From Medicago truncatula (taxonomy: Eukaryota > Streptophyta > Magnoliopsida > Fabales > Fabaceae), in NCBI RefSeq assembly GCF_003473485.1, contig NC_053048.1, forward strand, positions 50,899,755-50,963,754: a stretch of 64,000 nucleotides of DNA, read 5' to 3'. This document shows, piece after piece, positions 1,703 to 54,493 of this stretch (position 1 is the stretch's first letter; the number at the start of each line of letters is the position of its first letter). The translations under genes and the position numbers were made by a program. Under the pieces are notes generated by a model. That model saw only the letters and a program-made list of their open reading frames with translations, did no database searches and was not told where the DNA came from.

Positions 1703-2754
1703 AACACCCTGTCTGGATTTTATTTTATTTTTCTTGTGGCCTTCCAAAATAAACGTAGATAGCATTTCTTTTATTCAGAAAATGAAAAACGACAGTAAAC
1801 ATTGCATGTGAAACGTGTAGGTGCTAATTGAATTGAGTTGGGAGAAAAATTGAAACAAAATGGGACCACAGTTGGTGGGAGGCCACTTGTTTCTCAAAAC
1901 AATGAGAATTATGATAATCGACATGCTTGACTTTTGTGGTAGACAGACAAGATACATCTATTAAGCGTGTGGGTAATTGTCATTGCGATCAACTAATCCT
2001 ATGATGTTTTAATCAAGTATTTGACATTCATGTTTTTGAACAATGACGTTCATGACATTTTTGTTTAAAATAAGGTATCCTTCCCACATCTGTCGAAATT
2101 AATCTCTCATAACTGAGATTTATATAAAGAGTAAACATCTCCATTTGTAACAACAAAAGATCGAACTTACAACTAAATTATTTAAGATCATAAGCATCTT
2201 CCATTTGTGTCAGGTCATTCTGATTGACTTTCATGAGATTTGGCTACATAGATTTTTTTTTAGGGGATTTGACTACTTAAATTGAAATAGTCATGCGTTT
2301 ACTCAAAATGAATTGCCAAAAGTATTTTATGATAATTTGAATGGACTTTTACTAGTAATGATGATTATTTATTTATTTTGCTATTGACATTGTGTGTGTA
2401 TTCTTACGTTTTTTTGGTGAAACTATAAAGTTTGACTTCACATTAAATATTTGTAAAAGATATAAATTCATTAATACGAATGTGACAACATGGTTTGAAT
2501 TAGTTCTACTCTAAATCATAAAAATGGTAATTAATTAGGTAGTAGTCATATACCAAGGGTGGTTAGGTTGGGTCTAGAAATGAAACTTCAAAGAACAATA
2601 CAATCAATAGAGATAGACATTATGAGGGAAAAATCAATAAATTAATAATCAATGTCTAAATAGACTTTCATGTTACAGAAATTACAAATTGTATTAACAT
2701 TAGACTTGTCGTGAATTACAATGTGAATTATACAAATTCCATTGTTCGTGTTCA
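1703..2754. other. Downstream flank of the RNA-binding gene
   Basis: No gene was recognised. The right part should hold the 3' UTR of the minus-strand gene ending at 2755. A short poly(A)-type insertion lies at 2248-2265 (separate entry). Confidence 0.5.
2248..2265 (-). mobile_element. Micro-insertion (LINE-tail stub)
   Basis: A short CCCTAAAA-type tail on the minus strand lies between 'gatttggctac' (2237-2247) and 'gatttgactac' (2266-2276), 10 of 11 bases identical. Confidence 0.45.
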
Positions 2755-5700
2755 TCAGTAAGGTTTACCGGGTTTGTTGTCCCTCTTATGCTGAACCTTT
2801 AATTTCTTACCTCCTAATTGGCATCCATTCATCATACTAATAGCAGATTGAGCAGCTTCTGGGGAATCATAACTTACAAACCCTGAAAATGATAGCTTTC
2901 ATCAAACACAAGCTCCACACAAAATCCATCAAATTCATTACTAATAAGAGCAGAGGTTTACCAAAACATTTGCTAACACCGGTAGCTTTGTCAACAAAAA
3001 CTTTAGCACTCAAAACTCTACCAAATGGTTGAAAGGCATTAGCAAGCTCTTGATCTCCAAATTCTTGAGGTATGTGATAGATAAACAGATTTGCGCCAGG
3101 TGGTCCTAAGTGAAAATATAGTAATATTTATCATTGTAAGGAATAGTTATTGTAAAAATATAAAGCCTTAAATACATTTTTGGTCCCTTAACCTAATTTA
3201 AGGTTCGGTTTGGTCTCTTATCTCTAAAATGAATAAATTTGGTCACTTGTGTTATGTTTGTTAACGGCGTTTACGCCAGTTTAGGGAAATTAGTAATAAA
3301 GGCTTATAGCTTTAGCGAAGAAAATGCCACATCAGCACTAGTTAACAGCGTCTAGGTCAGTTTTCACATAAATGGCCAACTTGTGTTAACAGACATAACT
3401 TTGAGGATCAAATAGACTCATTTTAGAGTTAAGGGACCAAACTGAACCTCAAAAATAAGTTAAAGGACTAAAAAGATATTTAAACCAAATATAAATATAT
3501 TAACATGAATAATTGTATGCATTCATTTGTATCAGAGCACGTGTAAGAAATAAGAAACCTTCAGCTTGACCACCACCAGAATTTTTGCTGGACCCTGATG
3601 ATGTAGCGGAGTTGCCATTTCCACCGGAAGGTGAAACAGAACCAGGAGGACTATTCAAAGGTCTTGGACTTATCATTCCTCCAGGATATGCCATCGGATG
3701 TTGTAGCCCTGGCACAGCAGGATAAGAGCCAACATAACTTGCAGGAGGCACATGATAGTTTCTAGGATTCATATTGGGGCCGAGATCTGGCCGCAATGCA
3801 TTTCCTTGATTCATGTGAGGCATCATATTATGGTAACCAGGTTGATTCTGCATTGGTGGTGGCATGCGGTACGGCATGAGCCCATAACTTCCAGGAGCCT
3901 ATCAAGAGAAAATTAATGTCATCACACATATAACTCATCAAGATGTTAGTAATGAAAACTAATTCCTTCAACAAAAAAAAAAAAAGTAATGAAAACTAAC
4001 GAACATTAATACGAAAATGTGATATTTTTGAATGGAAGACAGTACTACGGAGAAGAACTGCATGAATTAAGGGGAAAAAACTGAATTAGTCTTGTAGTGT
4101 TATTATAATAGAACTAACCTGATAACCATAACCGTTATATGGAGGAACATAACCCATAGGCATGGCTCCAAATAATGAAGGATGCTGAGAATCATGTCCC
4201 ACATTAGAAGCTTGAGACTGTGCTTTCTGAGCTCTTCGGGCTTGTCTTTCCTTTTCAGTATCAGCCCATTTGACAACTAACGGAACACTTGAACCCTATA
4301 CATGACAACATATATCAGATCGCAGTTGTACTTGCCAAGTTAGCACATCACCGTCAAATTTTATCATGTGTGTAGAGAACATACAAACCAAATGATAATA
4401 AATGACTTGCAGGTCATGCAAACACAGACAAAAAAGGTGTCTAGATGAAGTTTAGCATCTGATCAGTAATTTTGGGTTAGCACTAGTTTGCCAAGAGGAA
4501 AAATAATTTGTGCTTGGGAAAAAATAAGATGCTGGTACAATTCAACTATGACACATTTTTGGGACTTCATGAGCATTGAATCATATATCTTATATTTTTC
4601 ATGTATTATAGTTGTATATATTGACTGAAACAGTGCACAAAGGTTTGTGTGCATGGGAGATAATCCCAGTCTTGAGATTTATTCAGCTTGGGCTAATTTA
4701 TTGCAAACATTTAAGAAGCTTCACAAGCCAGAGCTTGATTTTCCCTTTCTAAACTTGGATCAAGTTCGAGCCTGTCATATTAATAATTATTAACGGGTCA
4801 AACCTAGGTGTGGAACATTGTCCTATACAAGCCATTGCAGGGAACAAACCCACCATTAGGTTTCCAATTTGAGACAAGGATGCAAAATTGAAATAACAAT
4901 TGTAGGTCTACAATGAAATCTGAACATGATTAAATGTTCACATCGCTCACCAACAAGATTTTGTGACTGAATGCCGCTTGAAGGTCCAAAATACTGCAAA
5001 GACCATTTACAACTAAAATTGTAACTGAGGTTGAAGGCATGCACTTCTCCATTCTACCACATACAAGGAACCAAAAGCATGTTATCTATCTAAAATAGTC
5101 CGTTCATGCCATCTTAGTCAGGGTTTCAACTATATAACTTGCACTCATTGTATCAATAGAATTAGATGTATATACTATATAGTACCACTATATTGCTAAA
5201 TAGTAGTATCATTCAGAAAATACTGTAGTTTCATCTTGTACATGGAATCTAATTCTCTACATCCCTTCATCTTGTATTTAAAAGGAATGGTTTTGCCATC
5301 CAGAAAGAATAAGCGGCGCAACTTGTTGCCTGCTTGCATTCTATTTCGGTATAGAATGAAGTACATTTTTTTCTTTCATTTAACTCTTTATTTGTCCGTA
5401 GAAAATACATTATATTACATAATTAACCTGGCTACTACCAAAAATGAAAAATAGAAATAAAATTTAAAAATTCAGGTGACGGCTTTAATAAACACCAACC
5501 TCCATTTTGTGCTTTCCATTGATTGCCTCCAAAGCAGCAAGAGCTTGTTCTTTCGTTTCATACTTCAAAAATGCACAACCTACTACAACATGGTAAGAGA
5601 ACTATGAATAAGCCTTGTGAATTGTGATTAAAGAGAGCCAAAACCTAGAAAGAATAAAGAATGAATTAAGCCGTAAAATAAGCACCTTTGCTTGTCTGTT

Positions 5701-7390: not shown

Positions 7391-7797
7391 TAATGTCGAG
7401 TCGAAGAAGTTTCGTGTAACGATTCTTTCTCTCCCTCTCTCTCTCTTCTTTCTGAGATTTGGTTTTTCGTAATTTGGGGGTCGTCGATGCAAATTGACAA
7501 GGTACTCTCTCTTTCTTTTTCTCTCTCTTTTGGATGATGAATTATGGCGAATTTGGATCTTCAATATTTCTTTGCATATTTTTAATTATTATAACCTTAT
7601 GTTCGCGACATTTTTTGTTCCTTTTTTACCATTATACCACTACTTATCAAGTGGATTCGACACAGTGCTGTATGTCTAGCTGTCCTCAATATACTCTTCC
7701 TAATTGGCAAATTATTAGAATATTCTTTTGTTTTTTTGTAAAAAAATAATTATTTTTATTAAAATACTAAAAGTAGTGATGAAAACCTAATAAATGT

Positions 7798-7821
7798 TTC
7801 TATCAAGAAAGAACAAAAAAA
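7798..7821 (+). mobile_element. Micro-insertion (LINE-tail stub)
   Basis: A 24-bp insert ending in 'gaacaaaaaaa' lies between perfect 11-bp repeats 'ctaataaatgt' at 7787-7797 and 7822-7832. Confidence 0.65.
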
Positions 7822-8307
7822 CTAATAAATGTGGTTTTTTGTTGTTTGACTTATTTAAGAAAAAAAGGTGTTTCATTTCATTTTAATAGGAGTATGTAGT
7901 ATGAAAAATTCAAAGAGTTTTGTCTACGGCTTGAAGCCTTGAACTCCAAAAAAATTTATTCGAATCCTGCTAATTTCTTTGAAAAGACATAAATATAAAT
8001 ATCTTTGCAAGTGATCATTTTAAAAAAAAATCTCTGTAAGTGGAGTTGTCATTTATCATATGAGAATGTAGGTTAATTTGAATAAATATTTCCTTACGAC
8101 AAAAGATGAGTAGTGTATCATGTAAAAAAATATTTATCATCTAAAAAAAAATATGTAAACTACAATTTTTAAATGTGTATACTTTTGTGTTTTGATAAAC
8201 TTTTTGGTATTATAAATGCCATATATTGTATTTGTTAAATCATGGTTTAACAAGTTAGTTTTTTAAAAAAAAATTGTTACAAATCTATCTTTTAAGAAGT
8301 GTAAATT

Positions 8308-8326
8308 CTTTCAACAAAAAAAAAAA
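8308..8326 (+). mobile_element. Micro-insertion (LINE-tail stub)
   Basis: CTTTCAAC plus an A-run lies between 'gtgtaaatt' at 8299-8307 and 8327-8335. The tail nearly matches the TTCCTTCAAC-poly(A) stub at 3963. Confidence 0.65.
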
Positions 8327-9780
8327 GTGTAAATTATCATTTAATATTGAGGTGATATTTTAAAAATCTTTATGGCATCATACATGATTACTTACGCACA
8401 TTTTTTTAGTTTATTTTTGAATTCAAACCTAATTTTACAAATAAATATTTCATCAACGGTGTTATAAATCAAGTAAAAGATCAGTTTTGTTTTAAATCAA
8501 AACCGAACAATACATGTATGAATTCTAGTTTTGAGTGTGGTAAAATTGGACATACGAACTTCACATTAAACGTCCACGTAAACACTTTAACCGAGTTTGA
8601 TGAAAATATGATAAAAATGCATATATAAATGATTTAAATAACCAATTTGTAACCAAAAAAAATTATTATAAATACATAACTCAAAGGACCGTGAATGGTA
8701 TTTGACATAATTTTATTTTTTTGTTTGAAGGAGACATAGTTTTTATTACTCACTTATTAATTTTATTAGAAAGAAATAAGTATTTATTTTTTATATAGTG
8801 TTAACTATTGTTTTCTTTTTGTGGTCAGAAGAGCTAATGGTTTTTATTATAAAATAATATCGTGCTCATGTACTTAAAATAATTTGATAAACAACAGCTC
8901 TCCTAAATATTTTTAATCTGTAGTTTTTATTAGTCAACTTGTTGTTTTTATTTTTTTAAAAGATACTGTAACTCGTTATTTTTATTTTAAAAAATAAACA
9001 TTTCCATTTTTAGCAAGACAGAGTACCCAAGTCCAACTGAATTCCCTGAAGTTAACGGTCATCTTACAATGTTACTGAGAATGAAAAGTGAATTTCCACG
9101 AAACACAGTGATGGATAGGTTGGAAGTACAAGTTTAGGGACAATTATTGTCATCACCGTGAAAATGTAATTCACTTTTCCATGACTAAAGTGGGAAAGGG
9201 TAGGTTGGAAGTAAGGGTGAGTTGGTCAATTGTGAACTCAACTGAGTAATGACACTTTGTTGGTTTGGTGTTTTGTCTGTCTTTTATGCATTTCTTTTTG
9301 GTCAACCCTTATCTCTTATGTTATTATATACTACTAAAATATGTAAGTGTTGTTTTTTTTAACAATATATATATATACTAGTAGTAGTGTAAAGGATACT
9401 TAATTTTTAAAAGATCATAAAAGAAATTGGTGAAGAAAGTATTGACCCTATATTCTATCATATTTAATCTTTGTAGTACCATAAACAATAAGTAGACCGA
9501 CTCCTATATATATATGTTTTTATAGACATAGAATTTTATAGAATCGTTGTTATAAGATAAGATAATTTTGAGGAAGGTCCAAAATTACAACGGTTTATCG
9601 CAATTTTGGCAATCCAACAACCGATGAAAACACTCACCTAAAGAAATTTGAACGGGTTTTCAGAGTTCCACCCAAGATAGCTACTTAAACATGAAGAAAG
9701 GCGCATTATAAGCCACTAACGCCGCCAAATTGTAAAGAATCAGCATGCTGACTTTGCTTAATTCGTCACTACAAAAGAAA

Positions 9781-12733: not shown

Positions 12734-15595
12734 ATGTACACACATATTCTCTCTTGTGTTCAGCCACGGATCACAGCTGAAGACAACAATACTCTCACAC
12801 AGCCTTTCTCTGAACAAGAATTCAAAGAAGCTATTTTTAGTATGCACCCCGATAAATCTCCGGGCCCTGATGGCCTCAACCCGGCTTTCTTCCAAAGGTT
12901 CTGGAACGATATTGGAGGCGACATCTACACTACTGCTATCAATTGGCTCTCCACCGGGGTCATTCCCTCCGACCTGAATTCTACACATATTGTTCTTGTT
13001 CCAAAAGGGGAAAATCCAGAATCAATGAAAGATCTTCGTCCCATATCCCTTTGTAATGTCCTTTACAAAATCATTGCCAAGGTTCTAGCAAACAGATTGA
13101 AGCCTTTGATTAATAAATGGATTGCACCAGAGCAAGCAGCTTTTGTCCCCTCTCGTTCGATATTAGATAATGCGCTTACAGCTTTTGAAATTTTACACTA
13201 CATGCGCTGCAAAAGAAAAGGAAAAGAAGGGGATATAGCTCTGAAACTCGATATTTCAAAGGCATTTGACAGTGTCAGCTGGTCTTATTTACAAGCAATC
13301 TTATCCAAATTGGGTTTCTGCTCCCAATGGATCACATGGATGATGATGTGCATCTCTACAGTTGAATACCATGTCATCTTTAACGGAGACCGCATCGGCC
13401 CCATCACTCCTACACGAGGTTTACGACAAGGTTGCCCTCTGTCCCCATATTTGTACATTATCTGTGCTGAAGGGTTGTCTGCTACTATTAAGAATCACGA
13501 GCTTCGAGGTAAAATCCATGGAACCCGCATTTGCCGTAAGGCTCCTCCTGTTAGTCACCTTCTTTTCGCGGATGACAGCTTCCTATTTTGCAAGGCGACA
13601 ATTTCAGAAGCTCAATGCCTCAAAGACATTCTTTCTAGTTATGAACTCGCTTCTGGGCAAGCCATAAACTATAGGAAATCGGCGATTTCCTTCAGTGCAA
13701 ACACTCCACAAGACTCTATCTCTTCCATCATGACATGCCTTGGCGTTTCTAGTGCAATCGGAAGCGGAAAATATCTAGGTCTTCCATCTATGGTAGGTCG
13801 TAGCAAGAAGGCAATCTTCACCTATCTAAAAGATCGAATATGGAAGAATTGTCAATCTTGGAGCGCTCGGTCTCTCTCAAGGGCAGGGAAGGAAATTTTG
13901 ATCAAGTCAGTGGCCCAAGCCATTCCGTCTTACTGTATGGGAGCCTTTCTTATCCCTACATCTCTTTGTGATGAGATTGAAAAGATGATGAACTCATTTT
14001 ATTGGGGCTCTAAAAAGAACGGTCGTCGTGGAATAAATTGGCTACGTTGGGACAAGCTCACTCGCCACAAAAGTCAAGGAGGTTTAGGCTTCAGGAACCT
14101 CGAAGCATTTAATCTTTCTATGCTCGGTAAGCAAAGTTGGAAACTCTTATCCGACTCGTCCTCCCTATTTTCAAGAATCCTCAAAGCTAAATATTTTCCC
14201 CGAAGGGATTTTTTGGATGCCAATCTAGGTCATAATCCAAGTTACACATGGAGGAGTCTATGGAGTACTCAATCTTTACTTACCTTGGGCCATAGGTGGA
14301 AAATTGGAGACGGTTCCCTAATTAATGTGTGGAGTATGCCTTGGATCCGCAATTTGCCAACTCTCAAACCATCTACCCCGCCTCTATTGCACCACGCGGA
14401 TCTTACGGTTAGTTATTTGTTGAATTCAGATGGAAATTCTTGGAATATTCCTATAGTGCAATCTCTGTTTAATAGCGTAGATGCAGAAGCAATCGTTTCC
14501 ATGCCTTTATTCCCTCGTACTGCTACTGATCAGCGCATCTGGAAGGCTACTGCAAACGGATCTTACACTGTCAAATCAGCATATCGTCTTTGTTCAGACC
14601 TTATAACTGCCATCAATCCCATCCAACATGATTATCGTTGGAATTCTATATGGAATTTGCAGATCCCACCACGAGTTCGAGCTTTTCTTTGGCGCCTTGC
14701 TCAACATTGTTTGCCAACTCGCGCTAATCTTCTTACCCGTGGTATTCCATGTGATGACTCGTGCATATTTTGCGACCAATTCGCAGAAACGCAGACTCAT
14801 GTTTTCTTCGTCTGTCCGAAAGCATCCAGCTGCTGGGAACTGCTTGGAGTTAATCACATCATCCGAGACCTGCTACTCTCTAGTAATGACTGCACTTCTA
14901 TGTTTTTTGACTTGATTGACAGGTTACACCCGCAGCAGCAAGTACTAGTTGCTATGACTCTCTGGAGCTTATGGAAGAGTCGTAATTCCAAACTTTGGGA
15001 GGCCACAGATACTACTCCAATTTCTATTGTCACTCAAGCAAAGGATGTCATCAACGAATGGAGTTGTATGCAACGAGAAAAGGCACCAATTCACCACGCA
15101 AATTCTGTCCACTCCTGGATCAAACCACCGATAGGTACAATTAAATGCAATGTCGATGCAGCTGCATTTAATAATAATTCTATCATGGGGTATGGTATGT
15201 GTTTTCGCGACTATACAGGTACTTTTTTACTTGGGAAATCAGACTTTCATCACTCATCAGCCACTGTTTTGGAGGCAGAATCTCTAGCCTTGCTTGATGC
15301 TATTAAATTGGCTATTTCAAATGAGATGCATGTTGTATTATTTGAAACTGATTCGAAGATCTTAGCTGATGCACTCACCAATAACTCTTCCCCTACCAAT
15401 GAGTTTGGAGATCTTGTAACCCAATGTAGAAGTCTCTTACTTGATAAACCCGACTTTGCAGTGTCGTATGTTAGGAGGCAAGCAAATAGTGTTGCTCATA
15501 GTATTGCTCGAGCTTCGCTATCTCATCCTAGCCCCCATATTTTTCATCATGTATTGCCTACTTTGTACCGCCTAATTATGAATGAAATGAATTGA
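12734..15595 (+). CDS. LINE ORF2 remnant: reverse transcriptase plus RNase H, 953 codons open
   Basis: In order: the start of the RT domain ('KSPGPDGLNPAFFQRFW', about residues 42-58), 'RPISLCNVLYKIIAKVLANR', 'LKLDISKAFDSVSW', 'GLRQGCPLSPYLY', and the catalytic FADD at residues 278-281. A thumb/connection region ('GRSKKAIFTYLKDRIWKNCQ') follows, then a zf-RVT segment (C-x2-C 'CIFCDQFAETQTHVFFVC'), and a C-terminal RNase H ('KCNVDAA', 'EAESLALLDAI', 'FETDSKILADAL') that keeps the D-E-D residues. A full-length plant L1 ORF2 is roughly 1,300 aa. The missing N-terminal endonuclease means it should not be able to move on its own. The ATG is not the element's own: it is the first three bases of the target duplication and happens to be in frame. 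Transposon-derived, not a host gene. Confidence 0.93.
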   Translation: MYTHILSCVQPRITAEDNNTLTQPFSEQEFKEAIFSMHPDKSPGPDGLNPAFFQRFWNDIGGDIYTTAINWLSTGVIPSDLNSTHIVLVPKGENPESMKDLRPISLCNVLYKIIAKVLANRLKPLINKWIAPEQAAFVPSRSILDNALTAFEILHYMRCKRKGKEGDIALKLDISKAFDSVSWSYLQAILSKLGFCSQWITWMMMCISTVEYHVIFNGDRIGPITPTRGLRQGCPLSPYLYIICAEGLSATIKNHELRGKIHGTRICRKAPPVSHLLFADDSFLFCKATISEAQCLKDILSSYELASGQAINYRKSAISFSANTPQDSISSIMTCLGVSSAIGSGKYLGLPSMVGRSKKAIFTYLKDRIWKNCQSWSARSLSRAGKEILIKSVAQAIPSYCMGAFLIPTSLCDEIEKMMNSFYWGSKKNGRRGINWLRWDKLTRHKSQGGLGFRNLEAFNLSMLGKQSWKLLSDSSSLFSRILKAKYFPRRDFLDANLGHNPSYTWRSLWSTQSLLTLGHRWKIGDGSLINVWSMPWIRNLPTLKPSTPPLLHHADLTVSYLLNSDGNSWNIPIVQSLFNSVDAEAIVSMPLFPRTATDQRIWKATANGSYTVKSAYRLCSDLITAINPIQHDYRWNSIWNLQIPPRVRAFLWRLAQHCLPTRANLLTRGIPCDDSCIFCDQFAETQTHVFFVCPKASSCWELLGVNHIIRDLLLSSNDCTSMFFDLIDRLHPQQQVLVAMTLWSLWKSRNSKLWEATDTTPISIVTQAKDVINEWSCMQREKAPIHHANSVHSWIKPPIGTIKCNVDAAAFNNNSIMGYGMCFRDYTGTFLLGKSDFHHSSATVLEAESLALLDAIKLAISNEMHVVLFETDSKILADALTNNSSPTNEFGDLVTQCRSLLLDKPDFAVSYVRRQANSVAHSIARASLSHPSPHIFHHVLPTLYRLIMNEMN

Positions 15596-15650
15596 TTCTG
15601 CTTTTGCTCAAAAAAAAAAAAAAAAAAAAAAAAAATGTACACACATATTC
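12734..15650 (+). mobile_element. Young 5'-truncated L1-type LINE with target duplications
   Basis: A perfect 16-bp duplication ATGTACACACATATTC flanks the insertion (12734-12749 and 15635-15650). The element body runs from 12750 to a 25-base poly(A) ending at 15634. It starts just upstream of the reverse-transcriptase domain, so ORF1 and the endonuclease are missing. Intact coding sequence and identical duplications indicate recent insertion. Confidence 0.95.
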
Positions 15651-16286
15651 ATACGTTACGGATAATACATGCAAAATTGTGTAATAATAAAACGGAACGA
15701 ATGAAAAAGTTAGTCGAATATACCTTATTCCTTTTATCTACATATATAGATTAAAAAAACAATTGAGCTCGGGTAGGAGTTCAGTCATAGGTAAGTACAA
15801 TTTAAGAAAAATTGTTTCATCCATAAATCGAACCTAAATTCTCCTAAATAATTTATCCTTTGTTGAAATTCATTAACCACTTGAGATCGATTGTTTGGTT
15901 CATTTCGTTTTTATTTTTGTTGACGTTCTTCTGAATTTGATTTATGTCCTCCGAGCATTGTTTTCATTTCCATCAATATATTTTAGCTTATAAAAAAACT
16001 AATTTTGTTGTTCTCTTTGTTTTTAATGTTTTAGAATTAGAATCTACACTCCACATGCCACGTGAATAATAGAAATCCATCTTACAAATGCCATAGTTTT
16101 TTTCTTTTTGGAGAAACAAATGCCATAGTTAGATTCCCCTAAAAATATGTCATAATGTCCTAAGTTAACCAACCGATCGAGCCAACTCGATGTACCTTTT
16201 AATTAAAATTGTCAGCGTGACGAATTCAACAAATGAAAAGCGTTATTTTTTCTTGTTAAAATCTTCCGTAGTCTTCATTTATAATA
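15651..16286. other. AT-rich spacer
   Basis: No gene was recognised. A micro-insertion lies at 16099-16115. Confidence 0.5.
16099..16115 (-). mobile_element. Micro-insertion (LINE-tail stub)
   Basis: On the minus strand TTCTCCAAAAAGAAAAA lies between perfect 15-bp repeats 'acaaatgccatagtt' at 16084-16098 and 16116-16130. Confidence 0.72.
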
Positions 16287-17428: not shown

Positions 17429-18140
17429 TTTATAATATACTCCAAATCTAAGTGGAAAACCAAGATCATTTGCAGAAAGCAAAAGATATATAGTTGATAG
17501 TAATTGCTTTTCACTTTATTTTAATTTCATTTTCAGGTCAATAAAAAAGGACGTCAATTGTTGCATATTAAAAAAAAAAGACATCAAATTGTTATGGAAA
17601 GGGCGTTTACCTTTTTGTTGATGAAGAGTGAGGGAATCATATAGCATTTGATATTTCCCAGAGTCTCCATGGTCACATGATAACAACTCAACCACTTAAA
17701 TATAAAAAATAAAAATGACAACCATTTGTAAAGGAAGAAAAAAGCAATTCCCTTTCAACTTTGATGTAAAAGAGAACTAATTATCCACTGCAATTTCATT
17801 CGCCACCAACATTGGACCAACTCAAATCAATATCCAATTGGGTCCCTTTTTATTATTGTGCATGTTAGGAAACATAATCTCATAGAGAAAGACAGTGACT
17901 GTTGTTATATTTATTTGCAATGGAATGATATTGTACAACCTTGTGTGGGGATTCCTAAACAAGAAAAAACAGTAAAATCCTTGCAATTAACATTTTCAGC
18001 AATCACATTGTCTCCTGTTTGTCTCTTTCCGAGTTATATATGGATGAAAATGATGGATTTTAATTTTAATATTTTTTTTTTTAAATATCTATATACACGT
18101 AAAAATGTTTTAGTCCATGATGCAATAATATGTTAACCTA
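17429..18140. other. AT-rich spacer
   Basis: Nothing coding was recognised. One candidate micro-insertion lies at 17563-17579. Confidence 0.5.
17563..17579 (+). mobile_element. Micro-insertion candidate
   Basis: GCATATT plus an A-run lies between 'gacgtcaattgtt' (17550-17562) and 'gacatcaaattgtt' (17580-17593), which differ by one base and one indel. Confidence 0.4.
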
Positions 18141-29250: not shown

Positions 29251-29631
29251 CCTGGTCAGCCATAATGCTATTTTGTATGGAAGTACCTAATACAGTACTT
29301 ATTCTTGCTGTTTCCTATGGTAATTGGCAGAGGGAGTTAGTTATTTACATAGATTCTCACATTGACTGCAAGTTTTATATCTGCCATGGCCCATGGGAGT
29401 TCTGATTATATCTTTTTATGCTCTTCTTATCAGCAATTGATCAATTGGGGGACCCTTATTTGCCATCTTGTATTTGTAGCAACATTATTTTAAGATTTTT
29501 GGAATGTAGTTTCTCAAGCGGCATGGATGTGAGGAAAAGTTGTACGGATTACTATTCCTGAGTGAAAGAATTTTTAGTTGCCTAGAATTTTCCTTGTGAT
29601 ATAATAACTTTGTTAAAATTTACTGAAAACT

Positions 29632-29654
29632 TGCACCAAAAAAAAAAAAAAAAA
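29632..29654 (+). mobile_element. Micro-insertion (LINE-tail stub)
   Basis: TGCACC plus 17 A lies between perfect 11-bp repeats 'tactgaaaact' at 29621-29631 and 29655-29665. Confidence 0.75.
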
Positions 29655-31220
29655 TACTGAAAACTGATACTGAGCATTGCTGTTTCTTGTAAAGTGCGAT
29701 GAATTCCTTTTTTAACAAAATATGTTCAGTAAATGGATTGATACCCAAAATCATTGAATTTGATGGCAAAAGTTCCACCACCAGCTGTTCTCCTCGGTAA
29801 AGAATTCGTAGATACCGTTGTGAGTTCAAGTCTTTTACTCGTAGTAGTACACCACGATAGGCGGAACTTAGTTAGGACATATGGTGGCCACGACCACTCC
29901 AAAAAGAAAATTATAACACCTACACTCCAACCATAAATACCATGCTCTCCTTTTGCTACTCCATTCCATTTGCCCCAGCTCGTGTTTTGCCGCCTGACTG
30001 TGTACCGTTCCTTCCGTGCACGTTTGTCTGCGTGTGTGACACAATGTCCCCCCTCTCCACTGTGCGTGTCTTTGTTTGTCCCTCAGGAATCAATAAGTTC
30101 AATCCTTCCTTAATCGATTTCCTATGCGAATTGGGTACTTTTATGTTGTGATTGAATTGGTTTCCTATGCAAATTGAATTGATTTATTGTTGTTGGCTAC
30201 TTTGATGCTACAATATGAAAAGAATTGGGTATTTTTTCTGGTTCTGATGTATGAAATTGAATTATTACGCTGCAAATGCCATCTTTACTTTGATGCTGCT
30301 GTAGTTCTGTAGGAAATTGAGCTGCCCTGCTCTATGTCTATGAAAATAATTGGATTGTGGCCTGCTGGGTGGATGTTTTGTATTGCAACACTTATTGAGG
30401 ATCTGATGCAGTATTCAGTAAGATGACGGTTTTGCTGGTATGCATATGCTATTTTATGATAGTCTGTGTTGTTATATTTTGGGGGAGGTGGGGGTTGAAA
30501 TTGATAGCAACATTGAAGTTTGCTGCTGATTTTCTGGTTTTTATTTATCTGTTGTGTGTATGCTGCTGATTTTTTGGTTTTTAGGCTACTTGGTTGCAGT
30601 GTCTTTAATTCATGTTTGCGCCGAATAATATCGTAATTATTTTGACATGGTGGGACTTGTGAACCTGTTATTTTTGGCGTTGATTGAATGGTCACTTATA
30701 TCATAATGAAAAGGTTAAAATCTTGCCCACATATCAAAGAAGTTTCTTAAAATTTTAGTGAAGTAACATGACTTAAATATTTGGCCTCATGAAAAACTTT
30801 CAAACGCTGCCACTGTATGTACAGGCCGTTTGAAAAATGATAGATTTGTCTCTAAACAATTATTTTTTGTATCTAAAAAATGATAGATCTATCTCTAAAC
30901 ACTAATATCATATCATATATTATACCGAGCCATACATATATTTGAATTCGAAAGCTCCCATAAGTTGGAAGCTAATCCAAATTAAAATTGGCTTTAGTCT
31001 TAACTTATGCTCTAGCATTATCGGTTTGCAGTAATTCTTTTAATCGCGGGAAATTATTAGATCAGAGCATCTTCACATCCTGTTCATACACCTAGCCTAT
31101 GAAATTTTCCACTTTTAGTTTTTGCCTTTGTGAATATCCAATCTGGCCGTTTAATGTAAAATTTCTATTTGCATATTTGGTTTTCATACCTGCTAGTGAG
31201 CTAACTATAATGGGTTTCTT

Positions 31221-31250
31221 GAATTTAAAAAAGAATTATTAATAAAAAAA
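31221..31250 (+). mobile_element. Micro-insertion (LINE-tail stub)
   Basis: A 30-bp A-rich insert ending in seven A lies between 'actataatgggtttctt' (31204-31220) and 'actataatgagtttctt' (31251-31267), 16 of 17 identical. Confidence 0.6.
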
Positions 31251-33070
31251 ACTATAATGAGTTTCTTATTCTTGGTATTATGTTTAGCTTTACACTGTTG
31301 AAAATAATCAAAACTTTTTCGCTGATATTTGTAGTACAAAGGTCAAGCAGTTAGGTAGTGTCAACTTGCTCGTCAACCTTGATGATCTAGGTTTGATATT
31401 CTGGTACATTGAAAAAACTTGGCCAGTGTTGGCACTTTGAATCCAAATCAGTGTGACTAGTGCTGTCAATCAACTTCATGCTGGAAAGCATCCTTACCCA
31501 ATGAAATCTGGTGTCTATAGCTCGTTCACAACTCACAAGGTTTTGTAGTATTTATATTCATCGCAGATAGAATTAAAGTGAAATCATCTAATTATATAAG
31601 AACAATTTATAGATAGTTGAAAATTTCCCGTTACTCCTAATTTCAATTAAAATTAAATGATAATAGCGAAATTGCAATTGTATATGTACGCAATCTAAGT
31701 TTGCATACGTCTTAAAATTCATATTTTAAAAAATTACATAAATGAGTTTACGTGAGCAATGTTAAGCATGCTATATAAAAAACTCAATTTACATACGAAT
31801 ATGTAAACTCAACTTACATATGCATTGTAGATTACATAAACTCAATTTGCAAAGGTTGTGACTTTGAATACAACTGATAAATTATTTAATTTTAAACGTA
31901 TTTTAGTCATCTGAGGGTGTAACTAATTTTTTTTGGGATGTGACTCAAAATTGTCTTATATAAATAAAATATATTTTTTTAATTAACTTTAAACATTCAA
32001 TGATTTTAAAGGATCAATAGTGAACAAAATTTCAGTCGTTATGTTTCACAAATTACACAACTTATCCCCAACAAAAGGTGAATACCAGTGAGAGTTCGCT
32101 GAATTTACTAATGTGACTTTTGTAGATTTGAGTGGACGTGTGTTGATACCGTATAAGCTAAAAGTTATTAGTTCATCTGAAAGTGTTTGACACAAAGCTA
32201 AGCTGTCAGTTGCAATCATGAGAAAATAAAAATAAAACATTATCTATAAAGATAAATTCATCAGAATCCATACACACCTTGGTCAACTTATATTACATTA
32301 AAATGACTCCTTTTACAAAAAAGAGCATTCCATAGATATCATTTGCCGTCATTGAGTCACTTGAGTTGAACATGGCTCAAAACAACATAAAGGAGACTAA
32401 GTTGCATTTGTAAGTAACTGACCAAGTAGCATCTGTACGTCAACATCTGAGAAAAAAGGGCCATTGTTTTTATCAATTCAGTCAACCACAGTAATAATAA
32501 TTTGCCTCAGAAATCAGCTATTCTCAAGATAAAGGACTCAAACGCTTTCTGTAAACCTTCCCAAACCAATTACATCTACTGAGTTTATTCACGAACAGTT
32601 TATGCCTGCCAAAGATGAAGTTCACAGCAATGTTAAATTTTAACAAGATTGTCAAGATAATGCGTAACCATCATTTTACAAAAAATACAGTGCATTCTTT
32701 CCTTATTCTAGAGCGCAGAACAATAGACTTGCTACATCATATATACGAAGTTCCAAAGTGAATTTATCTCTAAGTGTACAAGAGTGTTTTCATCCTTATG
32801 TGCATTGTGGTCTTAACACACCAAAATTGAAGGATAAAAAATAACCATATTTGTTCACTTTAGAGATAATATAACTTCACCGCGTACCTAGTTCAGATAC
32901 AACAACTTCAAGAGTGGCAACTGGCAAGAATGAAAATGTTAGGTTCATCATAGTGTGAGATAGCTAGCTATACATAGTACAGATCAAAGGCAGCCTTTGT
33001 ATAGTTAGGTTAATATATCATGTTCCAAATATTATATCATCATACCTCACGAGTTCCAAATGTCTAAATA

Positions 33071-41470: not shown

Positions 41471-41618
41471 TATAATAGAAGAAGATGTTGTGTTCGACTA
41501 GAAAAGAAAAGTAAAGAAGCAATTGCACAGGGACGGGGACGGGGACTGCCAATATCAACCATTCATTCACAAACTTATTTATTTTCCTGGATCAGGCCTA
41601 CTCCAAGGACAATGTAAT

Positions 41619-41638
41619 TTTTATTTTATTTTAGGAAA
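41619..41638 (-). mobile_element. Micro-insertion (LINE-tail stub)
   Basis: On the minus strand TTTCCTAAAATAAAATAAAA lies between perfect 10-bp repeats 'acaatgtaat' at 41609-41618 and 41639-41648. Confidence 0.6.
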
Positions 41639-42261
41639 ACAATGTAATAATTTTAAATATCTGTTTTAAATAATTGGTCAGTCTCGTATAACCTATTCTT
41701 CATCTTAGAGTAGCAAGGGTCAAGGGACATTATATATATGTTCTTTTATTGCAACGTCAGTTTTTTTTTTTAACGAATTTGTAGCAAAACCACATTAAAA
41801 TGGTAACAATGTGAACATTTAGAAACGTAAAAGACATAAATTGTTATATGAAATTAAATTATGAGAACGTGAGAGTAATTTTGAAAATTCTACGGTAAAG
41901 TCACGAAAATGATTTTTTTTAGTGAAGTTAACATTGTAGTATAAAAAATGTTGTGAGTAACACCTCACTGTACAATGACATCAAAAGTTCAGTCTACATA
42001 GTATCATCAACTATCAGACTAACAATAATACACTTAATCTAATTTTATCATACCTTGTTTTAAGTGCAACACCTCACAACGTTTAATACTTAATACAATC
42101 ACATAATATCATCAACTCTGTTTGCATGTTAAAGATGCCAACGATAAAATAATACGTCCAAGATGTTGCAAGCATTACTAGATGAATTACTATTAATCAT
42201 GAATCACTAATCAACAATTTAAAAATGAATCAAACATTAAGATTAAAATTAACTTTTTCAA

Positions 42262-42436: not shown

Positions 42437-42558
42437 ATTAACTTTTTCAAAAAAATCAATTTCCTGACGTAGAAATTCCCAACTAACAAATCATACAAAA
42501 ATGGATGGAAACACATTTTAATCACATAATTGGAGCATACTTTTAAAACATATATCAA

Positions 42559-42579
42559 TATTTTTTTTTTTGACGGAAC
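42559..42579 (-). mobile_element. Micro-insertion (LINE-tail stub)
   Basis: Minus-strand GTTCCGTC plus an A-run lies between perfect 11-bp repeats 'acatatatcaa' at 42548-42558 and 42580-42590. Confidence 0.68.
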
Positions 42580-42812
42580 ACATATATCAAATTAATGGAG
42601 CAAGTTCTAATTCTTTTCATACATGGAATAAAAATTACACAAAATTGTATTGGCCCCCATATGTTTGGAGGTTATACTTGAGTCTTTCTTTCTTCCTCTC
42701 CTTTGATTTTTTATTTATATAAATAAATTATACTTGAGTCTCTCTAACCCCAACCAACTGGCATCTAATCGACAATATGCGGATGAATCATCTCTAATAC
42801 TGTTTCTGAACT

Positions 42813-45213
42813 TCATAGATTTTGCATGATGGATCTCACATCATTTGCTACATTTTTTGCATCTGCAGCAGCTCCATAGAAACCTCTCCTTGATAGTCCA
42901 GCACAATATAAACCATTCTTTCCCTTCCAATGAATGGGGTAACTTGGCTTGGGAATACCATCATCATTCAAAAGGTAATCATCCCCCTACCAAAATATAA
43001 TTAATTAGTTTATATATAAAATCTAACATACGTCAAAGCATATATGGTCACATTTCTTTTGGTTTCTACATTTCCCATTTTCATGTAACATATATTAAAA
43101 TAAAGAGTCTTAAAAACAATTATTATTTTTTTTTTTTTTTAACTTTCATTTTACTGTTGTTGCTATTGATCTATCTATTCATCATCAAAAGAAAATTTAA
43201 TATTTTAATAAAAATGATCTAATAAAAAAGACAAGAAAATTTCCAAACCTTAAGCCACTTGTGGGTTGATCTCTTGAAGCCGGTGCAGAAAATAATAGAG
43301 TCAAAAGAGTGTAATTGGCCATTTTTGAAGAGGACATTCTTCCCACTTACGCATTCTATTTCCGCTGGTAAAACCTAACGTAACACACAACACAATGTCC
43401 ATTCGTCACGTCACAACAACAAACAAAGCTACCGCAATTATATTTTTGCACTTTTCATTCATGTACTAACTCAATATGTGAATTTATATTATTATTTATT
43501 ATCTGAATCTGAATTATTATTATTCTTCAAACGAGCTAGTTTTCCATCTTTTTAGTAAAATGGCATTGAACCTTTGTTTATAGTTAGATAACCTTCCACT
43601 TAAATAAATTTGTTTATGCAAATATACTAGTAAATTACGACTATTTTTATAAGATTACTTATAAATTAAGAGCGTTAAATCATGAGGCAAATTTTAGTTG
43701 AACTTTCAAGTTACACCAAAGCAAAGCAACCAATGGCAATTATCTCTAACGTACCTTTAACTCTCGAGATTTAATTTTGTGAAAGGTTCCAACGTCAATA
43801 ATAGGATACTTGCCGTACTTGACCTTCATATAAAAGGGACCCTCACTAGGCCTACCAACCCCATAATTCGTGACATCCCCGTAAACCATTTTACTAAGCA
43901 TCACCATCACTGAATCCACCATCTCCATTGACAAATACTTCATCAGAAACAACCCCAAATTCACCATGCCCCTTGACAAAATGTGAACCTGCATGCACAT
44001 TGCATTCACTTTGTTATATCTGAGCGTGACAGGCAAACTAATTAATAGCAATAGTTTAACCAAAGTTACATAATCAATCACAATCATATACTGATTTTCT
44101 TCACATCTATGTATTGTATAACAAAGAACAAATAAACGGCTAAATCAAATCCCTCAAACATGACATGTTCAATCATAAACCGCAAATATTTACACATTCA
44201 TCACGTAGTAATTTATATATCTATTCTTAAAATTTCTTCTGTTTTTCCCTATATGTCGGTGGCCCGTGCAATTGTTGTTACCTTGTACCTTCCATGAAGG
44301 GGATATGTGGAAAAACTAGTAAAATGTTTTTTACTCGGTCGATAAATGAGACCATATAACTATAACCAATAATAGAAACAATCATTCAGTTAAAAAAAAC
44401 AAAAACAAAAATCAATCATCGATATGTTTCATAACAAATACAGAGTTGGTGAGTTGGTAGGTATAAGTGTGATGAGATAATTAAATTACCTAACAATTTT
44501 AAATTTGATGTGTGTCTATGTGTATCTTAAAATTAAAGGAAAACAAAACAAAAATTTGTGAGTGAAATCAAATAGATGTTGAAAATAACAATTACCTTGC
44601 TTCGAACAACAATGGAAGTTTTTGCACCATGGTTAACAAGATCCAATGCAATTTCCATACCAGAATTCCCAGACCCAACAACAAGAACATGTTCATCTTT
44701 AAACTCTTTCCCATTCTTAAACCCAGTTGAATGAATCACTTTCCCAGTAAAACTCTTCAACCCATCAATTTCAGGTACAAAAGGGTCACTAGTTTCACCA
44801 CTAGCTACAACCAAAAACCTTCCTTCATATTCCTCAACCTCACCAGATTCCTTATTCTTAGCCTTCACCTTCCATTTCTCAGAACCTTCATCATACTCTG
44901 CATTCTCAACTGTTCTGTGATACAGAGGATTGATTTTGAAGTGTGAAACATAGTCCTCTAAGTATTGTAAAAACTTATCTTTAGGAATGTATGATGGAAA
45001 AGAAGGTGGAAATGGTTTGTGAGGAAGCTCACAAAATTGTTTTTTGAGGTGAAGATGAAGACGATCATATGAATATTTTTTCCATAGTGAAGCAAAACAA
45101 TTTTCTCTTTCGAGGATTATATAAGGAATGGATTGGTTTCTTAAGCTTGCTGCTACTGATAGACCAGAAGGGCCTGCTCCAACAACTATCACTCTTTCAT
45201 TCTCTTTCTCCAT
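42813..45213 (-). CDS. YUCCA10/11-like flavin monooxygenase, copy A
   Basis: Four exons: 45213-44596, 43988-43755, 43374-43249, 42986-42813, all in phase 0, giving 383 aa, the usual length for YUCCA10/11. FAD-binding GAGPSG is at residues 12-17 and NADPH-binding GSGNSG at 180-185. A YUCCA-type 'FCTGF' (313-317) replaces the FATGY of the family. YUCCA enzymes convert indole-3-pyruvate to the auxin IAA in the cytosol or at the ER using NADPH and O2; activity here is inferred from intact motifs. A paralogue with identical exon phases lies to its right at 54494. The start codon is only about 40 bp from a long (TA)n tract that abuts a Micron-like insertion, so the native promoter has been displaced or interrupted. 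Confidence 0.93.
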
Positions 45214-45252
45214 TTTTTCCTTCTCTTTTTGTTTTCTTGATCCATCTATTGT

Positions 45253-45256
<4 letters not shown>

Positions 45257-45323: not shown

Positions 45324-46090
45324 CAGGATCCGTTGACACCAAATCTCAACTATTGATCTTATTTAATCAAAGGTTAATAATAGTGCCACATTTTTATTTA
45401 TTGTGTATCCTTTTTTTCAATCACACACTATTATTGTTTTTAATGATTACAAAACCTCAATTGGAAACATAATCCTATCATAATTCTCCTTATTCTCTTG
45501 TCTGCAAAATTGAAATACTCCATAGTTGAATAATTAAAATACTTCAAAGATATTATTGTTTAGAATGAATTGGAAATATTAGTTGTTAAATGCAATTCTC
45601 TCTATGATCTCTTCTCCTACATACTAATTGTACCAATTCAAAGCCAGTGACTTTGCTGAGATTTCTTTTTTTATGCCGTAATCAGAATAAAATTGTAATG
45701 GAGTTTTCCATTCTACCAAAACCATACAATTCACTTTTTTGATATCCAATCATTTAAAAGCAAACTCATCCAATTGTAATTTTGTTTTGAAGGAAGCTTA
45801 TTCAATTGTAATTGTTATAATAACATTGACATAAATTTCCTTCATGTGCTCCAATACATAGGAGGAGTTAAATAAGAGGGAAAGGAGATAGAAACAAGAA
45901 TAATAATATTCATAGGAACGGGGGAAGAGAAAAACAATTTTTCTAGGAGAGAATTACGAGTATCATTGCTCCATGTTTTCGGTTTGAGTTTTTCAATCAC
46001 TAAAATCAATAATTGTGTCTTTGGGATAGATAATTATGGGCCTTTGGATTAAAATAACTGACGGATAAGATTTGGTGTCAACGGATCCTG

Positions 46091-46154: not shown

Positions 46155-46799
46155 GCTATTTATTTTTAATTGGTGTCCGGATTCGAACTCCGTACCTTAC
46201 ACGTAATTTGATATGGTAGGCATTACTTAAACAATTTAGAATCATCATTTACTTATTCAAAAACTTTTATACTACAGGATAATTGTTTTCTTTTTCTCAC
46301 TTATTTCTTTTTATAATTTTAGATAAATAATATGTTACTATAAACACATCATGTTGAATAAAAATCGTTTCAACTTTAATCATATAATTAGAAACAAAAT
46401 TCCCCGTACAATACTTTTATAAAGTAAAAAAAGTAAATGATATTTTAAACGTACCTACATGTATGCATATTTGTATTATTTATTATTAAAGAAATGAAAG
46501 GATCACATCCTCTAGCATTCCTCTTGTTATTATTATTATCATAAAATAAAATAAAAAATAGGCGTCCAACACAATGAATATTTCATCTTTTTTTTTTTTT
46601 TTTAGGGGATGTCATCTTTAAGTTATCTTGAAAGTAAAGAAATTAATCATATACTCCTACTTGCTTTTGGGAACCGTAAGCTATTTATGCTTTTATATAA
46701 TTTTATGGTTTTTTAGGCTTTAAGATTACTACTGTGCAGCTGATTTCTCAAGTTCCAAATAAGATGAGATGAAGCAAACAACCCGAGGAAATTGTAAGT
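46153..46799. other. AT-rich spacer
   Basis: No gene. A tRNA T-arm-like 'cggattcgaactccg' near 46179 may be a SINE relic. A candidate micro-insertion lies at 46591-46611. Confidence 0.45.
46591..46611 (-). mobile_element. Micro-insertion candidate
   Basis: Minus-strand CATCCCCT plus an A-run lies between 'tcatcttt' at 46583-46590 and 46612-46619. The 8-bp repeat is short, so support is modest. Confidence 0.4.
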
Positions 46800-49313: not shown

Positions 49314-49935
49314 GGGTAATGTTATCTAGTGTCCTGGGAGCACTAGTTAAGGAGCATTAAATGAACATATTCCACTTATTTAACTTTAATTAAAGTAATA
49401 AATAAGACAATTAATTAAAAGAAGAAAAATGTGTATTTAATACTCTACCAAATTTCCTATTTTGTGATACAAACATGGAATCCTATTTTGTTTTCAAGAA
49501 TATTTTATAATTTTTACACATTTGATGATTTTGTATTTGATATTTTTTTTTGAGAGGTTGTATTTGATATTTTAATTGGTTGTGTTTTATCTTTGGAATT
49601 GTTAATTTATTTTAGATTTTATTTTAATTGAAAATGTTGCTAATTATGCATAGGCTTCCATGAATTGGTTTAAAAAAAATATGATTCACAGAAGATTTAC
49701 GGAAAGAAAAATTGGTTTGAGTAAAATCCACAAGAAGAAAAAATTTTATTAAGAAATGAAAAGGATATAAAAATGTAAATATGAAATGGAAAAGGAAATT
49801 TAACGGACTATTAAATACAATTTTTTTATTTTAATTAGTTACCTTATTTATCACTTTAATTAAAGTAAAATAAGTAGAATCTGTTCATTTATTGTTCCTT
49901 AACCAATGCTCCGGGGACATCGATTAACAACACCC
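49314..49935. mobile_element. Mutator-type foldback element (622 bp)
   Basis: The arms match over about 90 bp ('gagcactagttaaggagcat' against complement 'gagcattggttaaggaacaa', both followed by 'taaatgaaca'). A perfect 9-bp duplication TTATAATAA lies at 49305-49313 and 49936-49944. Non-coding. Confidence 0.9.
49547..49557 (-). mobile_element. Micro-insertion inside the foldback element
   Basis: Minus-strand CCTCTCAAAAA lies between perfect 16-bp repeats 'ttgtatttgatatttt' at 49531-49546 and 49558-49573. Confidence 0.7.
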
Positions 49936-50085: not shown

Positions 50086-50383
50086 TATAAATTTTCATTG
50101 AAAATTACAATTTTTAAACAATTCAAAAGTTGATTGCACTCTTTTTTAAAATAATACAGCCTTGATCCTTATTTATAGTAGCATATTTGTGAAAAAAAAT
50201 ACGGGAATTAAAAAAGTTAGTCATTATATTAATTTTGTTTGACAATTTCTATTATTTTACAAAATTATCCTTTATAAGAGAGACAAATAAAAAGGGTCTT
50301 TTTTTTTAAGAAGCAAATAAAAAGGGGTCTTATAATAAACGGACAAATAAAAAACTCAAAAGGATCTTATATTTTAGACTTAA
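50086..50383 (+). repeat. 300-bp direct repeat, copy S1
   Basis: Near-identical to 51996-52293, including 'ttgattgcactcttttttaa' and 'gtagcatatttgtgaaaaaa'. The right end stops at a Helitron-like terminus. Confidence 0.93.
50301..50313 (-). mobile_element. Micro-insertion within repeat S1 (also present in S2)
   Basis: Minus-strand CTTCTTAAAAAAA lies between 'caaataaaaagggtctt' (50284-50300) and the same sequence with one extra G (50314-50331). The same stub occurs in S2, so it predates the duplication. Confidence 0.6.
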
Positions 50384-50413
50384 TTAGACTTTCCACCCGT
50401 GCTACCGCAAGGG
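50384..50413 (-). mobile_element. Helitron-like 3' terminus
   Basis: Read on the minus strand, a 7-bp stem hairpin with one mismatch ('cccttgcggtagcacggg', 50413-50396) is followed after 12 nt by CTAA, then T. Spacing and sequence closely match the plus-strand terminus at 24942-24969. The element would extend rightward; its 5' end was not found. Confidence 0.6.
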
Positions 50414-50560: not shown

Positions 50561-50695
50561 CGTGTGTTACTTCATTCTTTTGTTAAAATTATATGTCAAT
50601 GTTATATTATTGGTATGTTACTTCATCTTTTTTTTTTATTTTTGACAAAATATTACTTCATTCTTTTGTAAAAATTATATGTTAATGTTATATTA
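50561..50695 (+). repeat. Two-copy ~60-bp tandem repeat with a micro-insertion in the second copy
   Basis: 'ttacttcattcttttg' followed by 'aaaattatatgt(c/t)aatgt' occurs twice. The second copy is interrupted by a T-rich insert around 50627-50652 (minus-strand TTTTGTC plus A-rich), bracketed by 'ttacttcat' at 50618-50626 and 50653-50661. Confidence 0.65.
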
Positions 50696-51017
50696 TGTAC
50701 CTAAAAATAGCTCATTCTTAACCTCAACATGTAAAATATTTTATTTAAATAATTTTCCTTTTATCAAATATTTGACCTTTACCGTAAATGATACCCTTTA
50801 ACTGTTTGTTGAAATGTTTCTTCCACCTGTTTATATAGATTGCAAAATTCTGGTGCATTTTGTGGTAGATATTTAACAAATTGAGTTCAGTTCTAATTGG
50901 ATGAAAAGTGTAATATTAACAAAAAAAATGTTGCTATAATCTTTCAAAACCCTTTTATTCCAATAGGGCGATTTGTTTTGAAGAAATACGGGAAATAAAG
51001 CGATGTCGATTTGCTTA

Positions 51018-51740: not shown

Positions 51741-51741
51741 T

Positions 51742-51993: not shown

Positions 51994-51995
51994 TA

Positions 51996-52293
51996 ATATA
52001 AATTTTCATTGAAAGTTACAATTTTTAAACAATTCAAAAATTGATTGCACTCTTTTTTAAAATAATACAGCCTTGATCCTTATTTATAGTAGCATATTTG
52101 TGAAAAAAATACGGGAATTAAAAAAGTTAGTCATTATATTAATTTTGTTTGACAATTTCTATTATTTTACAAAATTATCTTTATGAGAGAGACAAATAAA
52201 AAGGGTCTTTGTTTTTAAGAAGCAAATAAAAAAGGGTCTTATAATAAATGGACAAATAAAAAACTCAAAAGGATCTTATATTTTAGACTTAAT
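51996..52293 (+). repeat. 300-bp direct repeat, copy S2
   Basis: Second copy of 50086-50383. It runs into the left end of the Mutator-like element at 52286, with the first eight bases of that element (gacttaat) also present at the end of S1. Confidence 0.93.
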
Positions 52294-53367: not shown

Positions 53368-53742
53368 TATATTTTATGATGAAGATAATAATTTTATATT
53401 TGTTTTGTTAACTAATGTTCAAGGTTAACATTTTCCAATATAAAAAGTAGTAGAATGCTTAACATTTTTCAATATGAAAAGCAGGAAAAGGATTAGATAA
53501 GCCACATTCACTCACTAATACTCTCTTTCTTTTTGCTTGTCGTTTTACTTCATCCAAAATGAAATATAAGCAAAAACTGTAGTTAAAAAATTGATATATA
53601 TGTGAACTAAATTTTTAACATACATTAACATTTCAAGTATCACTTTTATTTATATTTCATTTATGAGGCAGTAAGGTTATTTCTATATTTCATTGAAATA
53701 AATAAATTTTGTTACTTTTAATATAATTAATTGTTTTTTTTT

Positions 53743-53820
53743 TTAGTCAAGTAATCTAGTGGTTAGAATTCACATTTTAAGGTGAATAAGTAGACTGTTT
53801 GAGATTCAAACCCGACCCTT
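53743..53820 (+). mobile_element. tRNA-derived SINE-like repeat, copy 3
   Basis: 'agtggttagaattcacattt' and 'aaggtgaataagtagactgt' align with the copies at 19354 and 50475. The B-box region has decayed to 'gagattcaaaccc'. Confidence 0.55.
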
Positions 53821-54346
53821 ACATATTACATTGCATTGTCTTTATCAACTGAATTATACTCACAAGAACAATTAGTTTTTTCATAACACCCTTAATTATT
53901 GACCATCTCATTCTACATATTTATTTCTCTTAATTGTTTATTATCTCATTCAAACATTTAAGGGAATGAGTGAGAAAACAACAATTAAGGTTGCATTGAA
54001 CTTTTTTTAGATTGCATTCAACTTTAAAACTTACAAATAATTTGCAAGTCTTATTATGGCTTGCTACTTATTCGCAGTCTTATTACTGCCGCGTATCCAA
54101 ACTTCTTTTTCTTAAAGTTTCAAAAGAATTTGCTCTCTGACTTGCACAGTTGAGACTCTTTTTTCTTGTCCAATTTTTATCTAATTTTTAATATTCATGT
54201 TGTATAGGAAAGGAATTAAATTAAAAAAAAAAAGAAGGAAAACATACAGTTTTAACTTAAAAATTTTTTTTTAAAATTTTTTGGGTGAATTTCAATCGGT
54301 ATATAAGGCCTAAAATATCAACGAAATTATGAACAACAAATTATAA

Positions 54347-54367
54347 TTTATTTATTTTTTTGAAGGA
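54347..54367 (-). mobile_element. Micro-insertion (LINE-tail stub)
   Basis: Minus-strand TCCTTC plus an A-rich tail lies between perfect 18-bp repeats 'atgaacaacaaattataa' at 54329-54346 and 54368-54385. Confidence 0.75.
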
Positions 54368-54493
54368 ATGAACAACAAATTATAAATTATGAACACATGA
54401 TTCTTAAACCTTAATTTATGGTCCATCGGCACACTACATTCTCAGTTTCAAATTAATCACAGACAGAACATATGACATAGACTCTCACAATTC

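Follow-up and report, generated by a model that had tools for sequence, protein, structure and literature searches.

Plant genomes harbor L1-type long interspersed nuclear elements (LINEs) and short interspersed nuclear elements (SINEs) with poly(A) ends, and the accessible part of one review describes a 3′ hairpin in a single monocot lineage (PMC3747384). In exon 25 of human NF1, an insertion of a poly(T) stretch of ~120 bp may, according to its authors in the portion of the report available, be an Alu, L1 or processed pseudogene that underwent severe truncation (PMC3219598). Here, we analyze a 64,000-nt stretch of the Medicago truncatula genome (430 Mb in 42 contigs), C7:50899755-50963754, referred to below as the window, together with samples from elsewhere in the genome, and describe a class of much smaller A-tailed insertions that we call stubs. 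Read in the A direction, a stub consists of an A-leading duplication, a short pyrimidine-rich piece, an A tail of about 7–22 A’s and the second copy of the duplication. Stubs share this structure and a single orientation, they occupy A-leading targets, and one core of their pieces is abundant genome-wide. The feature that is new here is the fixed length of the non-A piece, 5–7 nt.

Polarity and excess over chance

A sequence-only reading of the window had placed short inserts between direct repeats at 16 coordinates, and a best-pair repeat search around each, which carries no chance control of its own, recovered a repeat pair at all 16, three of them weak (2248, 17563 and 46591). That such inserts outnumber those in AT-matched shuffled sequence was borne out by independent scans of the window, which is 67% AT and rich in A-runs. 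An exact-repeat scan found eight A-tailed cases (one, at 30836, without stub form) versus one in the reversed window. A scan tolerant of mismatches found 11 A-tailed inserts at a score of at least 10 and none in mirror geometry, whereas shuffles of Markov orders 2, 3 and 5 (30 of each) averaged 0.10, 0.07 and 0.27, with a maximum of 2. At a score of at least 13, six A-tailed inserts remained in the window versus none in all 90 shuffles.

The same polarity, with the A tail abutting the downstream repeat copy, was evident against mirror controls in two larger samples. In 200 kb of C1, a different chromosome covered by 20 stretches of 10 kb, inserts scoring at least 10 numbered 18 in the right-way geometry and 4 in the mirror. 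A 284-kb sample yielded 28 rows representing ~26 loci (counted twice were L019 near 3084/3121 and L021 near 3503/3511), versus 7 mirror rows, so that about a quarter of its low-threshold rows are expected to be chance. In this sample, the polarity was also apparent in tests that make no use of the duplication: runs of at least seven A’s follow five pyrimidines including C in 67 cases versus 20 in the mirror, and follow CC plus 0–4 pyrimidines in 86 versus 31.

A fixed piece length and a recurrent core

Among 700 runs of at least seven A’s in the 284 kb, 48 had an abutting repeat with a score of at least 8 and a piece of 0–9 nt, versus 22 in the mirror, and pieces of 5–7 nt accounted for 30 of these versus 2. 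Other lengths gave 8 versus 13 (0–3 nt), 2 versus 1 (4 nt) and 8 versus 6 (8–9 nt). When the core score was raised to at least 10, real and mirror counts were 22 and 3 for pieces of 5–8 nt, 9 and 4 for 10–30 nt, and 29 and 16 for 60–200 nt, the last being a modest excess that could be attributable to ordinary truncated elements. The broad spread of truncation lengths expected of truncated LINE copies was not found in the 284-kb sample. Random 5′ truncation is therefore unlikely, because it would fill the longer bins, as is a random early stop, which would also fill the 0–3 nt bin. The sequence-only proposal that synthesis stopped within a few bases of the tail suggests random truncation and as worded is not supported, as the length is set and there is no comparable excess of shorter pieces or of pieces of 9–30 nt. 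In composition, the pieces are 84% pyrimidine, with T at 51%, C at 33%, and G and A at 8% each.

The recurrent core of the pieces is TCC[CT]n-A; the resemblance to the ends of LINEs in the window (GCTC-A and CTTTTTTC-A) that had been noted earlier is not the main match. Genome-wide, TTCCTTC followed by A9 occurs 1307 times, versus 14 times for the same letters backwards. We examined 28 of these places, picked by us from the first 100 of the 1307, all on C1 and without a separate chance control, using a TTCCTTC-containing pattern that is blind to shorter pieces, and 24 of the 28 are stubs. Among the first 20, an abutting repeat scoring at least 10 is present in 19 (the exception being L127), with pieces of 5–8 nt in 15 and 10–13 nt in 4. 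Five of the next eight are stubs (L155, L156, L159, L160 and L161, with a repeat of only 8 bp in L156); of the remainder, L158 and L162 are weak, and in L157 the piece, with a repeat, is 43 nt long. The sequence immediately preceding TTCCTTC is variable, as would be the case with a sharp left boundary. L134 and L140 suggested a source element with ACATTCCTTC, which was dropped because ACA directly precedes TTCCTTC plus A9 at only 40 of the 1307 places (control 1).

Strict placement of the first 20 pattern places left out L127, L134 and L136 (score 8), and in the remaining 17 stubs the duplications are 14–22 bp long, including the leading A’s. Fifteen of the 17 duplications are perfect, and there are 2 mismatches in 268 bases overall. 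These near-perfect duplications make the strictly placed TTCCTTC stubs look young, in a sample biased toward youth both by the unmutated 16-base pattern and by the need for a recognizable repeat. At least one leading A is present in 15 of the 17 (background 32%) and at least two in 10 (12%); in the 284-kb sample, at least two are present in 16 of 28 rows, versus the same 12% background. The base before the leading A’s shows a modest enrichment for T in the 284-kb sample (20 of 28 rows versus 51%) and a weak one for pyrimidine in the strict set (16 of 17 versus ~75%). L1-type endonucleases prefer A’s at the first nick, and the A-leading targets fit cleavage by such an enzyme. We make no claim for a preference at the second nick. 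Repeats end in T in 15 of 17 cases and the next base is a purine in 22 of 28, but when the repeats are aligned, leading T’s of the piece are absorbed into them and the native base that follows must be unlike that of the piece, which alone yields such numbers.

Mechanism, template and alternatives

With moderate confidence, we propose that stubs result from target-primed reverse transcription by LINE machinery of the L1 type that halts once it has copied ~6 nt beyond the poly(A) tail. In this mechanism, the endonuclease would nick the target in front of A’s, and the nick would prime on the poly(A) tail of an RNA. The enzyme would then copy the tail and ~5–7 nt of the RNA’s pyrimidine-rich 3′ terminus before halting at a set point, and joining would yield the 14–22 bp duplication. 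The halt might be caused by a roadblock, a bound protein or 3′ RNA structure. The LINE origin advanced by the sequence-only reading is supported with respect to the marks of target-primed reverse transcription, namely the duplication, the tail abutting its downstream copy and the A-leading targets, and falls short with respect to a match to the template.

We infer that LINE RNA served as the template, with the best candidate for the TTCC type being a low-copy family ending in TTTCC(T/C)n-A. The 3′ ends of sampled LINEs are pyrimidine-rich: the commonest family ends in TTTGCTC or TTTGCT, a second in TTTATTC or TTTTTTC, and a third in TTTCC followed by T or C. Ends of the third family include TTTCCTTC, TTTCCTT, TTTCCT, TTTCC and TTTCCCTCG. 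By eye, the stub core TCC[CT]n is similar to this third family, which has at least 21 matches at 59% identity or more, one locus being split in two, among the 150 of 2087 candidates that were scored. LINE copy counts here are lower bounds, as 150 candidates were scored per protein search (150 of 221 in the third). The exact third-family end, CTATCTTTCCTTN-A5, occurs 7 times (control 1), and the supposition that stubs outnumber LINEs is supported for LINE copies carrying the matching end, with 1307 TTCCTTC plus A9 places versus 7. In L143 and L152, the 3′ end of a TTTCC-family LINE is repeated 70 bp on, with a second A tail.

Several results weigh against this proposal. First, when stub pieces were compared with 94 sampled LINE/SINE ends, some of them mis-set at the first A-run past the match rather than at the tail, exact suffix matches numbered 15 of 28 at 4 nt, 7 of 26 at 5 nt and 3 of 19 at 6 nt, and shuffled letters gave means of 12.9, 5.2 and 1.6. 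Because matching was no better than with shuffled letters, the comparison of tails with LINE ends that had been suggested lends no support, and we do not claim the template. Second, TTTGCTC plus A9, with which the commonest family among the sampled LINEs ends, is present at 318 places (control 17) versus 1307 for TTCCTTC plus A9, and stub numbers therefore do not follow LINE copy numbers. Third, a stem-loop at the 3′ end of the candidate family is possible in single-sequence folds, but in the predicted structure 0 of 10 pairs carry a compensatory change and the covariation term is positive, so that covariation does not support it as the cause of the stop. Fourth, just two of the seven long truncated LINE copies examined have a clear duplication. 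Finally, no paralogous empty site spanning the insert was found for 59 candidates within the sampled sequence.

The long LINE copies bear on other readings as well. The five 5′-truncated copies that have no clear target-site duplication are L106, L110, L111, L112 and L114. Of the two with a clear duplication, one is joined by microhomology without added bases and the other carries GCAAG, which is not pyrimidine-rich; pyrimidine-rich non-templated addition at the 5′ junctions of long LINEs was sought in all seven copies and not seen. Ten longer A-tailed inserts were also tested, and three could be assigned: one is LINE-like (L010), one tRNA-derived (L103) and one a member of a repeat family (L016:3836-4046). 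In the tRNA-derived SINE-like element at L103:1604-1730, CTTGACC-A16 comes after a predicted 5-bp hairpin, and a stub at L008:955 has TTGACC-A. The element at L016:3836-4046 is 211 bp long and A-tailed, its end is inverted-repeat-like by eye, and related stretches occur in L002, L004, L010, L019 and L102.

The main rival to a halted enzyme is a tiny template, either a decay remnant or a processed RNA consisting of poly(A) and ~6 protected nt, that LINE machinery copies end to end, so that the length of the piece reflects the 5′ end of the template. This model explains much the same data, including the sharp length, with neither shorter nor longer products in comparable excess, and the seemingly fixed left boundary of TTCCTTC, with its 5–8 nt pieces in 15 of 19 stubs and its rarity of a preceding ACA. 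General plant mRNA ends should be richer in A than the stub pieces, however, and the 84% pyrimidine and 8% A of those pieces count against such a source. We regard a tiny template as a tentative possibility and somewhat unlikely. More doubtful still is the idea that stubs are complete copies of a micro-retroposon, with a body of ~7 nt (for example TTCCTTC) and poly(A), scattered by LINE machinery, the unit moved being scarcely longer than its tail; if so, it may be the genome’s commonest retroposition product.

Alternatively, the enzyme could copy poly(A) alone and extend the 3′ end of the cDNA by a few non-templated bases, rich in purines, which would appear as pyrimidines on the sense strand. 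Varied pieces, a narrow length, a strong pyrimidine bias and the failure of LINE-end matching would all be expected from such addition. By our estimate, however, the 1307 occurrences of one heptamer before A9 are too many for loosely random addition, and the recurrence of that heptamer makes this explanation less likely, as do the microhomology and GCAAG junctions of the two long LINE insertions with clear duplications. We consider it improbable.

Another candidate is double-strand-break repair that leaves tandem duplications with filler, the A-runs being incidental. In its favor, the window has many direct repeats separated by short filler, with 64 at a score of at least 10, including the 11 A-tailed inserts, versus shuffle means of 4.3–6.7. 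Short non-A filler between direct repeats of 10–26 bp, for example at 16545, 21262, 30521, 35396 and 61863, resembles such duplications, and the abundance of repeats with non-A filler indicates at least two classes, with the A-tailed stubs as one of them. For the A-tailed class, break repair is disfavored by the one-way polarity (11 versus 0 in the window, 18 versus 4 elsewhere), and A-leading targets, a fixed piece length and a recurrent TTCCTTC core would likewise be unexpected, making it a very remote explanation. Chance or slippage, despite an AT-rich window with many A-runs and the chance share of low-threshold rows, is rejected by the shuffle, mirror and backwards-pattern controls and has a negligible probability.

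Insertions in the window and relation to known systems

In the best-pair search, repeats of 10–16 bp are perfect at sites 3963 (3948..3999, + strand; TTCCTTC-AAC-A13, 15 bp), 16099 (16084..16130, − strand; TTCTCC and an A-rich tail, 15 bp), 41619 (41609..41648, −; TTTCCT and an A-rich tail, 10 bp), 49547 (49531..49573, −; CCTCTC-A, 16 bp) and 50301 (50284..50326, −; CTTCTT-A9, 13 bp). The window contains a duplication, with 50086-50384 and 51997-52293 being 93–99% alike at a spacing of ~1.9 kb, and a form of the stub at 50301 is present near 52198 in the second copy, so this stub is probably older than the duplication. One or two mismatches mark the best pairs at 7798 (7782..7832, +; TTCTATC and an impure A tail, 16-bp repeat with one mismatch), 8308 (8297..8335, +; CTTTC-AAC-A11, 11 bp perfect), 29632 (29621..29665, +; TGCACC-A17, 11 bp perfect), 42559 (42548..42590, −; GTTCCGTC and an A tail, 11-bp repeat), 50627 (50615..50661, −; TTTTGTC and an A-rich tail, 12-bp repeat with one mismatch) and 54347 (54329..54390, −; (T)TCCTTC-A7, 23-bp repeat with one mismatch). 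Site 31221 (31203..31267, +) belongs with these by its 18-bp repeat with one mismatch, and its 29-bp insert is A-rich, as the sequence-only reading had described it, and without stub form. Less clean is the stub at 45782 (45771..45813, −), which ends in CTTCCTTC plus AAAACAA between repeats that are exact over 11 bp and have 4 mismatches in 24 when extended. The weak cases are the stub at 2248 (2237..2283, −; CCCT plus A9, repeat GATTTGGCTAC/GATTTGACTAC, 3 mismatches in 18), the candidate at 17563 (17540..17587, +; GCATATT plus A10, also 3 in 18) and the stub at 46591 (46580..46619, −; CATCCCCT and an A tail, 8-bp repeat, best pair 1 in 11).

For comparison, the window holds two elements that we take, from their translations, to be LINEs. 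The first, assigned by its motifs, is 5′-truncated (12734..15650, +), with the 3′ end TTTTGCTC-A26 and the duplication (A)TGTACACACATATTC. The second (60042..61943, −) has the 3′ end CTCTCCTTTTTTC-A17 from 60058, also given as CTCCTTTTTTC-A17; its right limit is that of an open reading frame, and the element may go on. Gene pieces at 44533-45255 and 56766-57434, presumably flavin-monooxygenase-like, are related, being 80% alike over 300 nt.

If our samples are representative, the 28 rows (~26 loci) minus 7 mirror rows in 284 kb extrapolate to ~1 stub per 15 kb, or roughly 30,000 in the genome, and stubs would then contribute in a major way to small insertions, poly(A) tracts and young polymorphism. 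Having no body to match, they would probably escape repeat annotation. Moreover, the fixed length makes early failure of reverse transcription measurable, in terms of where and why the enzyme stops. A fixed-length stub class is not described in the accessible parts of PMC12016303 or PMC2837659, and no report of one in plants appeared in the titles and abstract openings of the literature searched, a coverage that takes in few subscription papers.

Among known systems, patch-mediated repair in rice is reported to leave small tandem duplications at breaks, with filler between the copies. Such duplications resemble stubs in that short direct repeats flank a short insert; unlike stubs, they are not expected to show polarity, an A tail or an endonuclease motif. 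Plant tRNA-derived SINEs with poly(A) share the A tail and, presumably, the LINE machinery (PMC3747384, in the part available). The SINE example above ends in TTGACC-A, and the stub at L008:955 has TTGACC, but stubs have no SINE body. The NF1 insertion is similar in being a tail-only product attributed to the L1 endonuclease, although, as far as the available text of that report goes, it is a single event with a long tail, whereas stubs combine ~7–22 A’s with a short pyrimidine-rich piece in very many cases (PMC3219598). The closest parallel is with 5′-truncated insertions of L1-clade LINEs, which likewise have a duplication, an A tail by its downstream copy and an A-leading target. Stubs differ from these in having no recognizable LINE body, in adopting one narrow length in place of a broad spread and in the number of places they occupy, which greatly exceeds that of LINEs sharing their end.

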